A stretch of 64,000 nt of DNA from Picrophilus oshimae DSM 9789 (GTDB taxonomy: Archaea > Thermoplasmatota > Thermoplasmata > Thermoplasmatales > Thermoplasmataceae). The notes under the pieces were generated by a model. The model made no database searches and was not told the DNA's origin. It saw nothing but the letters and a program-made list of their open reading frames with translations. Position numbers and translations under genes: made by a program. This document shows positions 35,767-53,346 of the stretch, piece by piece (positions within the stretch are counted from its first letter, which is position 1; every line of letters begins with the position of its first letter). Where the stretch lies: NCBI RefSeq assembly GCF_900176435.1, contig NZ_FWYE01000001.1, positions 372,001 to 436,000 on the forward strand, read 5' to 3'.

Positions 35767-36420
35767 ATGATGACAGAGGACGAGGCAATAGAGAAGCTGT
35801 TGACGCCTGACACAATGAACAGCATCAACAGGCTGATGGAAGTAGTGAAGAAGCTGGACAAGATGGGATTCCTTGATGTAATATCTGGAATCCTTGACGA
35901 CGAGGAAACCCTAAAAATGATAATGGGCATTCTAACAAGCGATGAGGTCTTAATGCTGTTCACAAAGAAGGACTCACTGCTATCCATGCTTTCCATTATA
36001 TCAGAAAAGAAGAATGTAAATGCACTGTCGAATCTCCTTGAAATGCTTGGAACATTGCAAAACAAGGGAATGCTTGATCCTGTCATGGGTATATTAAACG
36101 ACGATGAGGCCCTTGGAACATTGATGGGACTACTATCAAATGATTTTACAATGAACTTTTTAATGAACTATAAAACAATACTTAATGCCCTTGGAACCCT
36201 GGATCTAAGCGTTGCACCGCACTATGTAAACTTCATAAAGGCCATTGAGAATGCAATAAAAACCGAGACCGTTACACCTGTTGGTGGCATGATGGGAACG
36301 CTGCATGCAATGAAGGACGAGGATACACAGAGGGGACTTGGAATAGTCTTTTCCATACTCAAAAGCCTCGGCAAAACATGCTTTTCAGATTTTAACTGCA
36401 ATGCAGGAAATAAAAAATAA
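35767..36420 (+). CDS. DUF1641 protein, SQR partner
   Basis: 217 residues, helical, made of short repeats rich in Leu, Met and Asp (LLTPDTMNSINRLMEVVKKL, LDVISGILDDEETLKMIMGI, LDPVMGILNDDEALGTLMGL), which is the DUF1641 pattern. Genes of this family recur next to sulfide:quinone oxidoreductases and some formate dehydrogenases; the role is unknown, possibly docking the flavoprotein at the membrane. It overlaps no neighbour and starts 6 bases after the SQR stop, with GTGATG as a possible ribosome-binding site. It converges with the ubiquitin-like gene 10 bases away. Confidence 0.85.
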   Translation: MMTEDEAIEKLLTPDTMNSINRLMEVVKKLDKMGFLDVISGILDDEETLKMIMGILTSDEVLMLFTKKDSLLSMLSIISEKKNVNALSNLLEMLGTLQNKGMLDPVMGILNDDEALGTLMGLLSNDFTMNFLMNYKTILNALGTLDLSVAPHYVNFIKAIENAIKTETVTPVGGMMGTLHAMKDEDTQRGLGIVFSILKSLGKTCFSDFNCNAGNKK

Positions 36421-36430
36421 AAATATTTTT

Positions 36431-36625
36431 TTATCCACCTGAAAATACCTCTAAAAACAATAAATCATCTTCTGGTCTTACGTTTTCATCCTCTGTTGCA
36501 GGGCTTCCATTAAGTATAATTGCATATCTTTCTGCATCTATTTTATATTGTTTTATAATGTCATTTATTGTGAGCTCATGATCCATTTCTATTGTTTTAT
36601 TTTCTGATCCTTTTATTCTAATCAT
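36431..36625 (-). CDS. MoaD/ThiS/SAMP-like small ubiquitin-like protein
   Basis: 64 residues with a beta-grasp pattern: MIRIKGSENKTIEMDHELTI, then DIIKQYKIDAERYAIILNG, and the end LLFLEVFSGG with the terminal diglycine that is adenylated by an E1-like enzyme. It could be a sulfur carrier (molybdopterin, thiamine, or tRNA thiolation) or a SAMP-type protein modifier. A longer ORF reading begins inside the tRNA, but ATG 36625 is the sensible start. It lies only one base beyond the 3' end of tRNA-Gln, with no room for a promoter. A candidate activating E1 is at 52588-53346. Confidence 0.85.
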   Translation of the reverse strand: MIRIKGSENKTIEMDHELTINDIIKQYKIDAERYAIILNGSPATEDENVRPEDDLLFLEVFSGG

Positions 36626-36626
36626 A

Positions 36627-36699
36627 TAGCTCCGGGCAGATTCGAACTGCCGTCGTCGGATCCAAAGTCCGAAATGCTTGTCCACTACACCACGGAGCT
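36627..36699 (-). tRNA. tRNA-Gln (anticodon TTG)
   Basis: 73 bases on the minus strand. Acceptor stem AGCTCCG pairs with CGGAGCT, discriminator A, no encoded CCA. The anticodon stem TCGGA/TCCGA encloses CTTTGGA, giving anticodon TTG for glutamine (CAA codons). The T arm is GGCAG-TTCGAAT-CTGCC. No intron. A TATA-like box at 36723-36731 lies about 28 bases upstream of its 5' end. The ubiquitin-like protein's ATG follows its 3' end after one base. Confidence 0.96.
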
Positions 36700-36722: not shown

Positions 36723-36731
36723 ATTTTAAAT
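36723..36731 (-). promoter_or_regulatory. TATA-like box for tRNA-Gln and probably the ubiquitin-like gene
   Basis: Minus-strand ATTTAAAAT is centred about 28 bases upstream of the tRNA 5' end at 36699, the normal archaeal promoter spacing. It is the only plausible promoter for the downstream gene at 36431-36625, since the region 26 bases before that ATG is the GC-rich T arm and variable loop of the tRNA. Confidence 0.5.
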
Positions 36732-36857
36732 TTTTTTATACATTAAGCCAGCAATCTTAATAATACAATAAGATGCCAAGTCCTGTAATCTTATAATTAT
36801 GTTCACGAAGTTTAACCAACATAAAAAAATTTAAATTTTTATAAAATATATTAAAAA

Positions 36858-38831
36858 ATGCTTGATAAATTATTTAAACCAAAAAGCATAGCCGTGGTTG
36901 GCGCATCAACAAACAAGGAAAAGATAGGAAATATTATATTAAGAAATATCATATCAACGTTCTCGGGTAAAATATATCCTGTAAACAATAAATCAGACAA
37001 CGTTGAGGGCTATAAATCATACAAAAGCCTTAAGGATATAAATGAAACTGTTGACCTTGCAATAGTGGCCGTACCAAGGGATTCTGTTCCTGATGTTATT
37101 CAGGATGCAATAGATTCAGGGACCGGTGCGGCAATAATCATAACCTCCGGTTTTAAGGAAACGGATCAGCATGGTGCAGAGCTTGAGGAAAAGATAAAAT
37201 CAATGGCATCAGGATCTGGCCTCAGGTTCCTTGGGCCAAACACAATAGGCATAATAACACCATCATTTAACGGAACGTTCGCATTTTCAGACAATATAAA
37301 AGGCGGTGCCGCACTTGTTGCGCAGAGCGGTGGTCTTGGTGTTTACATGCTCAACTGGGCCCAGAAAACAAGAACCGGAATAAGCTACTTTGTAAGCCTT
37401 GGAAACCAGACAGATATAAAGGAATCTGACATCTTTGAATTTCTGGCCAATGATGTTGAAACAAAGGCCATTTTTTCATACCTTGAAGGGGTATCAGATG
37501 GCGATGCATTTTTAAATACCGTTCCGGAGGTTACAAAGAAGAAGCCGCTGATATTCTTGAAGGGCGGTACCGGTAAATCAGGAACTGCTGCAATAAAAAC
37601 ACATACCGGCAGTGTTGCAGGCTCTGTCGATATTTTTAAGGCCGCTGTAAGGGCATGCGGCGGTATCTTTGTTGAATCGCTTGAGGATATGCTTAACATA
37701 GCAAAACTTGTTTCATCAAGCGAGAGTGTTTCAAGGGACATACTTGTAATAACAAACTCGGGCGGTCATGGTGTTTTGACAAGCGATGCAATAGAATCAT
37801 ATAATTTAAACGAGATCGAGATACCTGACAGAATAAAGGAAAATTTAAAGAAGGTGCTTCCTGATCAGAGTGTGCCAAGGAATCCTCTTGATCTGTCAGG
37901 TGATGCGGACTCTGAGAGATACAAAGGTGCAATAGAGCTTACAAAGGATCTTGACTGCACAAAACTTGTTATAGTTCAATCACTGCCCATGGTAAGCTGC
38001 ACTGATGTTGCCAGGGCCATGATAAGATACCGCGGCAAGAGCCTTGTCGGTGTTACAATGGGTCTGGATGAGGATGCGGCCTCCAGGATTTTAGAATCAG
38101 CATACATACCTGCATTTAAATTCCCAGAGGATGCCGTTAAGGCAATAAAGTACATGACCGATAGAATGGAGCCTGTCAGGAAGATAAGAATACCACAGCC
38201 CGTATCTGAGGCCTGGAAGATCGTTTCAGGAAAGTCATACATAAGGGACTTCGAGGCTTTAAAGATCATGGAATTATATGGAATAAAAACACCGAGGTAT
38301 GGCATAGCCATGGATGCTGAAACGGCACAGAAGGTTGCGGACGACATAGGCTATCCGGTTGTCATGAAGATCTCTGGAGATGAACCATTGCATAAAACCG
38401 AGATGAACGGCGTTTATTTAAACGTTGAAAGGGACATGGTTAAGGACGTCTTTAACAGGCTTAATTACAAAAGAGTTTTAATAGAGGAGCAATTAAACGG
38501 GGCCGAGATCTTTATAGGCGGTATAAAGGATCCTGTATTCGGCCATACTGTTGTTGCAGGCATAGGAGGAATATACGTTGAGGTTTTGAAAAGGCTTGCG
38601 TATGCTCTTTCACCTGTTTCCGAGGAGGAGGCGGAGTACCTTTTGAACGAGAGTAATATATCAAAAATTATAACTGCAAGGAAGAGAAACTACGATAAGA
38701 ACAGCATAATAAGGGCAATTTCAAACGTTTCAAGGATGATTGTTGATCTGAATATCAGCCAGCTCGATATAAATCCATTGATTGTAAACGAAACCGGGGC
38801 ATACGCTGTTGATGTTAGAATGATCATTTAA
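36858..38831 (+). CDS. ADP-forming acyl-CoA synthetase (fused alpha-beta)
   Basis: Converts an acyl-CoA, ADP and phosphate to the acid, CoA and ATP. 657 residues. The N-terminal CoA-binding Rossmann domain starts FKPKSIAVVGASTNKEKIGN; the two ligase-CoA domains follow, with the phosphohistidine loop KTHTGSVAGSVDIFKA near residue 250; the C-terminal part is the ATP-grasp beta domain from DFEALKIMELYGIKTPRYGI to QLDINPLIVNETGAYAVDVR. Alpha and beta parts are in one chain, as in several archaea. Acetyl-CoA is the usual substrate, but aromatic or branched acyl-CoAs are equally possible. A TATA-like TTTAAATTTTT at 36830-36840 precedes ATG 36858. Confidence 0.92.
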   Translation: MLDKLFKPKSIAVVGASTNKEKIGNIILRNIISTFSGKIYPVNNKSDNVEGYKSYKSLKDINETVDLAIVAVPRDSVPDVIQDAIDSGTGAAIIITSGFKETDQHGAELEEKIKSMASGSGLRFLGPNTIGIITPSFNGTFAFSDNIKGGAALVAQSGGLGVYMLNWAQKTRTGISYFVSLGNQTDIKESDIFEFLANDVETKAIFSYLEGVSDGDAFLNTVPEVTKKKPLIFLKGGTGKSGTAAIKTHTGSVAGSVDIFKAAVRACGGIFVESLEDMLNIAKLVSSSESVSRDILVITNSGGHGVLTSDAIESYNLNEIEIPDRIKENLKKVLPDQSVPRNPLDLSGDADSERYKGAIELTKDLDCTKLVIVQSLPMVSCTDVARAMIRYRGKSLVGVTMGLDEDAASRILESAYIPAFKFPEDAVKAIKYMTDRMEPVRKIRIPQPVSEAWKIVSGKSYIRDFEALKIMELYGIKTPRYGIAMDAETAQKVADDIGYPVVMKISGDEPLHKTEMNGVYLNVERDMVKDVFNRLNYKRVLIEEQLNGAEIFIGGIKDPVFGHTVVAGIGGIYVEVLKRLAYALSPVSEEEAEYLLNESNISKIITARKRNYDKNSIIRAISNVSRMIVDLNISQLDINPLIVNETGAYAVDVRMII

Positions 38832-40111
38832 TGGAAGATATCTTTTGAAAAGAATTTTTTTACAACATTAAAATGTGAATTATTGTATTTTATTATTTTT
38901 ATCCCATCCTTTAATTTGTTTAGGTTTTTTCCTATATCCATTTTTTCTAATTCAAGATTCAATGCATCGTAAAAGCTTTTTATCCTTGTTTCGGAATCGA
39001 CATATAATCTATCCCTTTCTATATATGGCCCGCGCAGGGCCCTGTCCTTCCAGACGTTTATAAAGTTTATCGATTCATCACTGTCAACGGGCGGGCCGGC
39101 ATGCTTTGATACATCAGGTAACACATCACGCTGTAACTCTATAAGTATCTCTATGTTATTATCAACATTTATTTCTGATGAAACAGGCATGAAACCATAA
39201 CGGTCCGCTATGTTAAATATCTGTCTTTCAAATCTAAAGACCTGCGGATATATAATATCATCTATTATATCTGGCCTTTTCAATGTTATTATGTAAATGC
39301 ATGTGCCCCTTTTATGGTACCTTGGACTTATCTCCCTTGGATAAAAAAACGATTCGTTTTTATTCAATAAAAAGAGTTTTGATGCAATCTTCATCCTTGA
39401 AAGGTTTTCCAGGCTTACAGCAGCCCCGGCATTCCTTGTTGGATCGACAGGATCAACGATAACAACCGGCTCCTGGAATTTTTTCCAGGAATTTTCAGGT
39501 ATTATTAACCTTCCCTTAAGTTTTGAGAAATATTTTATCACGGCATCAAAGGATTTAAGGTTTATAACCAAAATCTCGCAAAGATAACCTGAAAAACCTG
39601 CCTTTGAGACCTCTGAACCGTAAACGTTGTTTGCCTTCATGAATATTTTTAATAATCTTATATCATTTCTCAGATTTTCATCCGTGTTTTCTATAACGTA
39701 CTTTGTGTGCAGTGGTGTCCTGTCAACAGTGCTCACTATTCTCTGTCCAGGTTCTATTTTATATGCTGGAACTATATCAATCTTTACATTTTCAATGTAA
39801 CCTGAAACATATGGATGCTCGGCATATTTCTCGACGCCGTTTTCAAGAATGTAATGGCCAAGGGAAAGCCCAATTGATTCCATCTCATTTTTTGGGTATT
39901 TTTTTGAAAAGACTATAAATATATCAAGATCGCTGTTTTTTAGGTTTGTTCCCTTTGAATACGAACCAACGGAAACGGGCTCTGCATCTATATTCCTTGA
40001 TGATATTATATCATTTAATTTTTTGATTATACCATTCTCTATGCACTTTAAACGAAGGCTCTCCTCATAATCAGGGGTGTAATCGCCAAGTATTTTTTTA
40101 TAATCTATCAT
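38828..40111 (-). CDS. cca: CCA tRNA nucleotidyltransferase, archaeal class I
   Basis: Adds CCA to tRNA 3' ends, which is needed because tRNA genes such as tRNA-Gln here lack an encoded CCA. 427 residues, in the normal range. The nucleotidyltransferase active-site block is SVGSYSKGTNLKNSDLDIFI (residues 47-66) with the catalytic GS and DxD; the third carboxylate lies in VKIDIVPAYKI. Later blocks include STVDRTPLHTKYVI and SKAGFSGYLCEILVI, then VDPVDPTRNAGAAVS. The start overlaps the NAC stop by 4 bases (ATGA), so the two are translationally coupled. Confidence 0.96.
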   Translation of the reverse strand: MIDYKKILGDYTPDYEESLRLKCIENGIIKKLNDIISSRNIDAEPVSVGSYSKGTNLKNSDLDIFIVFSKKYPKNEMESIGLSLGHYILENGVEKYAEHPYVSGYIENVKIDIVPAYKIEPGQRIVSTVDRTPLHTKYVIENTDENLRNDIRLLKIFMKANNVYGSEVSKAGFSGYLCEILVINLKSFDAVIKYFSKLKGRLIIPENSWKKFQEPVVIVDPVDPTRNAGAAVSLENLSRMKIASKLFLLNKNESFFYPREISPRYHKRGTCIYIITLKRPDIIDDIIYPQVFRFERQIFNIADRYGFMPVSSEINVDNNIEILIELQRDVLPDVSKHAGPPVDSDESINFINVWKDRALRGPYIERDRLYVDSETRIKSFYDALNLELEKMDIGKNLNKLKDGIKIIKYNNSHFNVVKKFFSKDIFH

Positions 40112-51832: not shown

Positions 51833-52591
51833 ATGATTTATCTATACATAATCATAGCACTTATAGGCATAGGCGTTGGGGCACTTACAGGGATAACCGG
51901 AAGCAGTGGCGTTTTAATAGTTGTTCCTGCCCTTTCAATAATGGGGCTTGGATTTAAAACTGCCGTTGGCTCAAGCCTTCTGGTTGATGTGATAACAACA
52001 ACCATAGTAATATACGTTTATTTCAAGGACAAAACTCTTGATATTTACACAGGTCTCTTTATGGGTGTTGGTGCCGTAATAGGGGCCCAGATAGGAACAT
52101 ACATAGCATCAATGATAGATGCATTTCCACTGGAGCTGGCATTTATATTCATGACCGGGTACATGTCATATTACAGCATGAAGCGCTCGTTTAAAAAGAC
52201 GAATATAGCAAAAAGAAACATAGAAAGGAAAAAGGCCCTGCCAGTGGCCATGCTTTTAAGCATTCCAATAGGCATATTAACCGGAACAATAGGCACAAGC
52301 GGCGGGGTCATGTTTGTTTTTATAACAATGCTGCTTTTTAACATATCGGCACAGAAGATGGTTGGAACTGCAACACTGGCAATGCTTTTCTCCGCATTGA
52401 GCGGTGTTGGTGGATACATAAGAATAGGGCATATAGATTTTTTATACTCTATAATAATAGGTGGAATAGCGCTGATCTCCGGTTACTATTTTTCAGTGTT
52501 TGCACACAGGATAGATGAAAAGTACATATACAGGTCTCTATCTTTTATATTCATGGCAGTAATTATAACAGAATCAATAAAGATAGTTTAG
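51833..52591 (+). CDS. TauE/SafE-family membrane transporter
   Basis: 252 residues with about 8 hydrophobic helices. Two internal repeats each start with a glycine-rich motif: LIGIGVGALTGITGSSGVLI (residues 10-29) and IPIGILTGTIGTSGGVMFVF (about 142-161), the hallmark of the TauE/SafE family, which moves sulfite, sulfonates or other organic anions. The substrate is unknown, though sulfur chemistry would suit an organism with an SQR. It converges with the E1-like gene with a 4-base overlap. Confidence 0.85.
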   Translation: MIYLYIIIALIGIGVGALTGITGSSGVLIVVPALSIMGLGFKTAVGSSLLVDVITTTIVIYVYFKDKTLDIYTGLFMGVGAVIGAQIGTYIASMIDAFPLELAFIFMTGYMSYYSMKRSFKKTNIAKRNIERKKALPVAMLLSIPIGILTGTIGTSGGVMFVFITMLLFNISAQKMVGTATLAMLFSALSGVGGYIRIGHIDFLYSIIIGGIALISGYYFSVFAHRIDEKYIYRSLSFIFMAVIITESIKIV

Positions 52592-53346
52592 GGTATAATG
52601 CCCTTTAAATTTGAATAGTATCTGCCAAGGTATTTATAATCATGCAGTGAGCATGATCTGCATTTTTCATTTTTGTTTATTTTTATTTTTTCAATTGACA
52701 TGTTTAATGAGTCTATTAATAAAAGATCTTCATCGGTATTTCCAAGGATGAACTTAACGGCAGTGTTCACGGCAAGGGATGAAACAATTGATGCTGTTGT
52801 TGCAACAATGCCTGTAACATCGCAGTTTGGTATCTCGCCAGGATCCCTGTTATAGCATGCAAAGCATGCAGTAATTCCCGGATTTATTAATTTCACCTGA
52901 CCGTAAAATTCAGAAACCGCCATGAAAACCCATGGGATTCGAAATTTATCACATGCATCATTTATAATCATTCTTGTTGTTATATTATCAGTGCAGTCAA
53001 AAACAATATCAAAATCCCTTACAATTTCATAATTTGATGAATCGAATCTTGATGTTTCATATGATATGTTTACCAAGCTGTTTATCTTTTTTATTCTTTT
53101 AAATATGGTTTCTGCCTTGTAGCTTCCAAGATCGTCTTCATTGTAAAGGGCCTGCCTGTTTAAATTTGTGATCTCTATTTTATCGTCATCGATCACGTGT
53201 ATTCTGCCAAAGCCAAGCATTGCAAGACTCATAATTGTATATGATCCGGTTCCACCGGCACCTATTACAAGGGCCCTGGTTTTTCTTATTTTTTCCTGGC
53301 CGTTTTTACCAATAAATTTTATGATCTCCTGTCTTGAATACCTCAT
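52588..53346 (-). CDS. E1-like activating enzyme (ThiF/MoeB/UbaA family)
   Basis: Adenylates the C-terminal Gly of a ubiquitin-like protein. 252 residues. The ATP-binding Rossmann domain is ALVIGAGGTGSYTIMSLAML (residues 25-44) with IDDDKIEITNLNRQALYNED; the second conserved part is DIVFDCTDNITTRMIINDAC. Zinc ligands are CFACYNRDPGEIPNC and CRSC, and CDVTGIVATTASI holds the cysteine region that follows in this family. The only obvious partner in the window is the diglycine protein at 36431. UbaA, MoeB and ThiF cannot be told apart from this sequence; one enzyme may serve several carriers. Confidence 0.92.
   Translation of the reverse strand: MRYSRQEIIKFIGKNGQEKIRKTRALVIGAGGTGSYTIMSLAMLGFGRIHVIDDDKIEITNLNRQALYNEDDLGSYKAETIFKRIKKINSLVNISYETSRFDSSNYEIVRDFDIVFDCTDNITTRMIINDACDKFRIPWVFMAVSEFYGQVKLINPGITACFACYNRDPGEIPNCDVTGIVATTASIVSSLAVNTAVKFILGNTDEDLLLIDSLNMSIEKIKINKNEKCRSCSLHDYKYLGRYYSNLKGIIP

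Follow-up and report, generated by a model that had tools for sequence, protein, structure and literature searches.

The gene for tRNA-Gln(UUG) of the acidophilic archaeon Picrophilus oshimae DSM 9789 ends one nucleotide before the start codon of a SAMP2-like ubiquitin-like protein (Ubl) on the same strand, and the pairing of these two genes is found in 18 of the 19 genera of the family. The tRNA and the SAMP2-type sulfur carrier probably form a two-gene unit driven by the tRNA promoter, in which an RNase Z cut after the discriminator base would generate the 3' end of the tRNA and the 5' end of the SAMP2 mRNA in one step. Judged from the arrangement of the sequence, co-transcription together with an mRNA end made by RNase Z is probable. 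Where the gap is 1-3 nt, as in this genome and the rest of its clade, the mRNA would be effectively leaderless (5'-U-AUG), while in the other genera the RNase Z product would carry a short, often SD-like leader. The window analysed is a 64,000-nt stretch of contig NZ_FWYE01000001.1 (positions 372,001 to 436,000), and the following features of it, all on the minus strand, make up the unit.

36723..36736, minus strand: BRE/TATA-like promoter for tRNA-Gln and SAMP2, scoring 10.9 bits and placed at -37 relative to the 5' end of the tRNA
36627..36699, minus strand: tRNA-Gln(UUG), anticodon ttg (ARAGORN; Rfam RF00005, 60.9 bits), without encoded CCA
36630..36633, minus strand: GGAG in the 3' strand of the acceptor, an SD-like core with complementarity to the 16S tail and separated from the ATG by 4 nt
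36626, minus strand: single T between discriminator and ATG in the sequence, with the predicted RNase Z cut between 36627 and 36626
36431..36625, minus strand: SAMP2-like ubiquitin-like protein, 64 aa, C-terminal FSGG (PF21965, PF02597, NF005028)
36408..36423, minus strand: T-rich stretch in the sequence just 3' of the SAMP2 stop

The first-pass annotation had placed the discriminator at 36627 and the Ubl ATG at 36625, both on the minus strand, and ARAGORN, RF00005, the ORF call and the sequence itself all agree with it; it had pointed out neither the recurrence of the pair in relatives nor the GGAG of the acceptor. The acceptor of the tRNA is AGCTCCG/CGGAGCT, the discriminator is an A, and one T separates the tRNA from the ATG. 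The residues MI at the Ubl start are invariant in 14 of 14 aligned sequences, and a GTG start at 36685, inside the tRNA, was ruled out, as the alignment puts the start of the relatives at the ATG of 36625 and the added residues would be encoded by the tRNA. As a control, the surroundings of all 43 other tRNAs of the genome (1.53 Mb in six contigs, with the handle G000; genera are given as g1 to g19) were inspected, these tRNAs having been found with RF00005. A same-strand ATG ORF of at least 50 aa starting no more than 20 nt downstream is present behind 3 of the 44 tRNAs, namely Gln-UUG (+1), Lys-UUU (+12) and Ser-UGA (+12), and four further candidate tRNA-ORF pairs appear when GTG and TTG starts are allowed. 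Since Lys-UUU and Ser-UGA also qualify, tRNA-mRNA units are not unique to the tRNA-Gln(UUG) locus; the 1-nt junction to an ATG is unique to tRNA-Gln(UUG) among the 44 tRNAs, and the pairing with Ubl is not a matter of chance because it recurs across the family.

The promoter was scored with a 14-column motif trained on the upstream regions of the 43 other tRNAs, the training median being 9.2 bits. The TATA-like box at 36723-36731 proposed from the first reading is real: the trained motif peaks at 36723-36736 with 10.9 bits and at the usual distance from the tRNA. Among the linked loci of the family, the median promoter score is 5.1 upstream of the tRNA compared with -8.3 inside it, and in 3 of 64 upstream regions the score does not exceed zero; for GC-rich relatives the values are conservative, because the motif comes from an AT-rich genome and may underrate their promoters. 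At the other end of the unit, the T-rich stretch at 36408..36423 is likely the shared terminator of tRNA-Gln and SAMP2. Behind tRNA-Gln(UUG) no T4 run occurs until +169, where the SAMP2 gene nears its end, while for the other tRNAs the first one occurs within 60 nt in 31 of 43 and as far as +169 in 2 of 43. The first T5 run was set aside as terminator evidence, being weaker than T4, since it lies as far or farther in 14 of the 43 other tRNAs; in the family, a T5 run precedes the SAMP2 stop in 18 of 64 loci.

Archaeal RNase Z cuts after the discriminator base. The genome encodes an RNase Z (TIGR02651, 350 bits, cut-off 293), and the start codon stands directly behind the tRNA with no promoter between them, the arrangement of a tRNA-punctuated mRNA. 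Of the 64 linked loci, 58 have a T and 6 a C right behind the discriminator, and one of these two bases also stands there in 42 of the 43 other tRNAs of G000; the tRNA-Gln/SAMP2 junction thus looks like the start of a normal 3' trailer. CCA is encoded in none of the 64 linked loci.

By search, Ubl was found in 88 of 117 genomes of the order. The family of the window comprises 77 genomes in 19 genera, and all of its 71 Ubl loci were fetched. ARAGORN places a same-strand tRNA-Gln(ttg) at a measurable distance upstream in 64 of these 71; by inspection, G102 has a tRNA interrupted by N with the same 3' end and an 11-nt leader, and G109 has the tRNA, a 7-nt leader and then an ORF broken by N. The upstream tRNA was not found by ARAGORN in five family loci, all from genus g15, and cmscan agrees. 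Between the discriminator and the ATG lie 1-3 nt in 15 of the 64 loci, 5-18 nt in 44 and 61-206 nt in 5. The 1-3 nt gaps belong to genera g1, g2 and g5, which form a single clade in a ValS tree (support 100/100), and some of the long-gap loci (L016, L010, L023, L037 and L041) have relatives of the same genus at 10-14 nt. In view of the five gaps above 60 nt and the five-genome exception of g15, the tight junction is not indispensable. The ValS tree was also used for the polarity of g15 (linkage lost versus never had), and it did not separate the deep forks of the family.

In the rest of the order, the pair occurs in 0 of 18 loci, G040 having a tRNA-Arg 73 nt upstream of a partial match, and among class-level relatives outside the order 0 of 20 hand-picked loci have tRNA-Gln upstream of Ubl. 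Three class-level loci (L133, L135 and L136, family f8) have a tRNA-Ser(CGA) upstream of Ubl on the opposite strand, and at L219 (G005, of the sister family) about 2.9 kb separates tRNA-Gln(UUG) from Ubl, which share a strand, with the intervening gene on the opposite one. Six genomes of the window's family are without a Ubl match and have tRNA-Gln(ctg) only, with no ttg, the block seemingly missing from the assemblies; loss of Ubl was not concluded for them because the UUG tRNA is likewise missing from the same assemblies. In addition, a contig scan for named relatives gave 13 loci, mostly from metagenome-assembled Thermoplasmata. No paper on a tRNA-Gln/SAMP2 dicistron was found in the literature, which is weak evidence as only open-licence full text was covered, and the main text of PMC2948915 has 0 occurrences of 'trna gene'.

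The translation start would differ among genera with the length of the leader. The 16S 3' tail is GGATCACCTCC. Of the 44 leaders of 5-18 nt, 26 contain an SD match spanning 4 nt or more, compared with a shuffled mean of 8.2 and maximum of 17 (2000 shuffles), and the 40 distinct leaders do so in 23 cases compared with a mean of 7.4 and maximum of 18, although these shuffle figures overstate the certainty because related loci are not independent. A 4-base match is lacking in the other 18 of the 44. Given these 26 matches, RNase Z would in many genera produce an mRNA whose short leader bears an SD close to the 5' end, and since a leader of 5-18 nt is present and often SD-like, the mRNA in most other genera would not be strictly leaderless. 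In the clade with 1-3 nt gaps there is no room for an SD in the leader, and leaderless initiation fits this genome: with starts chosen mechanically, 13 of 23 promoter-bearing genes of the window have the motif where a leaderless start needs it, and 10 of 20 operon-internal genes have an SD.

The assignment of Ubl as SAMP2-like is based on several comparisons. It passes the gathering scores of Pfam SAMP2 (PF21965, 29.8 bits, gathering score 27) and of Pfam ThiS (PF02597, 26.3 bits, gathering score 22.5), and among solved structures the closest to it in sequence are SAMP2 chains, with weak E-values of 0.015-0.02. The FSGG C-terminus is invariant in 14 of 14 aligned sequences, and both a Gly-Gly C-terminus and a partner E1-like enzyme are present in the genome. 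The NCBIfam equivalog for SAMP2 (NF041919) gives 22.5 bits against a cut-off of 70, and the top NCBIfam equivalog is the unnamed NF005028 'hypothetical protein' (126 bits). Because the NF041919 score is under its cut-off, the label SAMP2-like is used rather than SAMP2 equivalog.

The genome also carries candidate partners for sulfur transfer, and the E1-like enzyme is likely the activator of Ubl.

52588..53346, minus strand: E1-like (ThiF/MoeB/UbaA) enzyme, the sole PF00899 match in the genome, 16 kb from Ubl

One candidate NcsA/TtuA-type PP-loop thiolase is present, with the PP-loop (PF01171) and TtuA LIM (PF22082) domains over cut-off and both equivalog scores under cut-off (NF047749 NcsA, 218.7 of 500; NF049949 TtuA, 198.2 of 450). 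A second Ubl of the genome belongs to the ThiS family. Known relatives of the SAMP2-like Ubl act as sulfur carriers in tRNA thiolation. In the description of the Haloferax volcanii SAMP2/UbaA/NcsA system in PMC4048286, thiolation of the Lys-UUU, Glu-UUC and Gln-UUG tRNAs is proposed.

The neighbourhood of the pair was compared among genera. Downstream of and convergent to SAMP2 lies the CCA-adding enzyme, in 46 genomes and 14 of 19 genera, followed by NAC; the copy in the window is as follows.

38828..40111, minus strand: CCA-adding enzyme (PF09249, PF21133)

The genes upstream of tRNA-SAMP2 differ between genera. In g1, the genus of the window, the tRNA-SAMP2 unit appears inverted relative to its neighbours, with a 657-aa ORF between the unit and the CCA gene; this suggests that the pair moves as a unit. 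Part of the conservation of the pair may nevertheless be general synteny, because the other side of SAMP2 is conserved too, with the CCA-adding enzyme in those 14 genera. In g15, SAMP2 still adjoins the CCA gene but follows PAC2; an assignment of this preceding gene as prefoldin proved wrong, and PAC2 before Ubl is reported for Thermoplasma in the text of PMC2948915. The tRNA-Gln(UUG) of g15 lies elsewhere, and another ORF stands about 15 nt behind it with an SD-like GGTG between them (L166-L168, three genomes). This ORF is conserved, its N-terminus resembles a membrane anchor by eye, and one of the three, which was scanned, has no Pfam match.

Other tRNAs of these genomes are also followed closely by protein genes. 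At the tRNA-Gln(CTG) loci of relatives (L169-L176, L236-L244 and L246), a same-strand DUF1940 gene follows after 13-124 nt in 17 of the 19 family loci examined outside g15, while this pair is found in 0 of 3 g15 loci and is absent from the genome of the window. In G000, tRNA-Lys(UUU), which is also a proposed thiolation substrate, lies at C5:51712-51785 (L127); the 12 nt that separate it from rpoH (PF01191) contain an SD-like GGGTGGG. As well, the tRNA-Ser(UGA) of G000 at C1:86033-86114 (L094) begins 1 nt after the stop of an ORF, which we take to be ribosomal-protein-like, and a 215-aa ORF follows 12 nt later; this locus is a possible mRNA-tRNA-mRNA unit.

Other readings of the junction need to be weighed. 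The SAMP2 start might be read on the uncleaved RNA through the GGAG of the acceptor, which would make tRNA and protein mutually exclusive fates of a transcript. GGAG, an SD-like core complementary to the 16S tail GGATCACCTCC of this genome, precedes the ATG by 4-6 nt in 15 of the 15 loci whose gap is 1-3 nt, a spacing close to that of the SD-like leaders in other genera, and the UUG tRNA of the longer-gap loci has GGGG at this site (G096 has an odd acceptor). However, the strand is base-paired, with a mean pairing of 0.89-0.99 in seven folded short-gap RNAs, and GGAG would abut a folded tRNA; tRNA-Gln(CTG) also has CGGAGCT in g1, g2, g3, g5 and g7 without any Ubl, which marks GGAG as an ordinary tRNA-Gln variant; and in the ValS tree the short-gap genera group as a single clade, so that they possibly represent one event. 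Folding covered 17 loci, the true acceptor pairs of G070 having a mean probability of 0.21, and it supports pairing of the acceptor strand only, since the free-fold z-score of tRNA plus mRNA start is an unremarkable -0.63 and the predicted minimum is no clean cloverleaf. Being strongly paired and shared with the CTG acceptor, GGAG was ranked as a rival rather than as the main reading, and initiation on uncleaved RNA is improbable. It is still less credible, to the point of being nearly negligible, that SAMP2 has its own promoter and that its closeness to the tRNA reflects compact packing only. Short intergenic distances are common in archaeal genes, and five loci have gaps of 61-206 nt. Yet the first-pass annotation, which saw no plausible promoter inside the tRNA and named a strong internal TATA as what would speak against it, holds up on both points: the best internal score is -5.5 compared with 10.9 upstream, and in the 59 linked loci with gaps below 30 nt an internal score above 0 occurs in 0 of 59 (the motif may underrate GC-rich relatives), on which grounds an internal SAMP2 promoter was rejected. 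Even in the five long gaps, the added stretch scores just -0.1 to 5.1, at varied places, with no clear new promoter.

Co-transcription and processing at the tRNA end are thus set against these two readings, and a further one, compatible with such processing, concerns why the genes are linked. The pair may be co-transcribed and processed without any meaning for thiolation, SAMP2 having simply inherited a strong constitutive tRNA promoter, and we regard the balance for and against this as about even. The linkage need not concern thiolation, because tRNA-Gln(CTG) has a conserved partner of its own in DUF1940, and with two tRNA-Gln/partner pairs, both absent from g15, much is explained by a general tendency to make use of tRNA promoters. 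The tRNA-Lys(UUU)-rpoH and tRNA-Ser(UGA)-ORF pairs, the other ORF 15 nt behind tRNA-Gln(UUG) in g15 and the confinement of the linkage to the family (0 of 18 order loci and 0 of 20 class loci outside it) point the same way. Against this, tRNA and SAMP2 stay together while the upstream genes vary among genera, and the linked tRNA is one of those to which SAMP2 is proposed to donate sulfur in the account of PMC4048286. As Gln-UUG is among those tRNAs, the carrier would come from the transcript of one of its own proposed substrates; a role of the carrier in thiolating tRNA-Gln(UUG) as the reason why the linkage persists is a tentative suggestion, less likely than not. Under co-transcription and processing, it is conceivable, though rather doubtful, that each RNase Z cut would yield one tRNA to thiolate and one leaderless or minimally led donor mRNA with a 5'-monophosphate, such that processing sets the supply of the modifier, and that in the clade of the window the acceptor stem may double as an SD, with tRNA maturation and modifier synthesis competing.

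If the unit works as proposed, a leaderless mRNA would arise from tRNA processing itself, a prokaryotic parallel to tRNA punctuation in mitochondria, and the sulfur donor of tRNA thiolation would be linked to one of its proposed substrate tRNAs. The arrangement makes testable whether archaea translate 5'-monophosphate RNase Z products as leaderless mRNAs, as well as whether the supplies of a tRNA and its modifier are coupled through transcript architecture. Moreover, the SD-carrying and leaderless versions in related genera offer a natural comparison.

Several known systems resemble this unit in part. In the tRNA-tufB operon of E. coli, tRNA genes are likewise transcribed ahead of a translation-related protein gene, but the mRNA has its own leader and SD, and no start codon is known at the tRNA end. 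In animal mitochondria, an mRNA may have its 5' end at the start codon or close to it. The excision of tRNAs by RNase P and RNase Z is described as creating mRNA ends there (PMC8437803), and tRNA excision would similarly create an mRNA end here; unlike in mitochondria, the present case concerns a single dedicated pair of tRNA and mRNA, encoded on an archaeal chromosome and having a promoter of its own, and most relatives have a short, often SD-like leader. With the SAMP2/UbaA/NcsA system of Haloferax volcanii, the genome shares a SAMP2-family Ubl together with an E1-like enzyme and a candidate NcsA-like enzyme, while the description in PMC4048286 gives no tRNA linkage. An archaeal tRNA apparently co-transcribed with a downstream protein gene is also seen at TK0306 of Thermococcus kodakarensis, whose 159-nt 5'-UTR is reported in PMC4247193 to contain a tRNA-Lys; unlike at TK0306, the start codon here follows 1 nt after the tRNA, and the pairing is kept in 18 genera.
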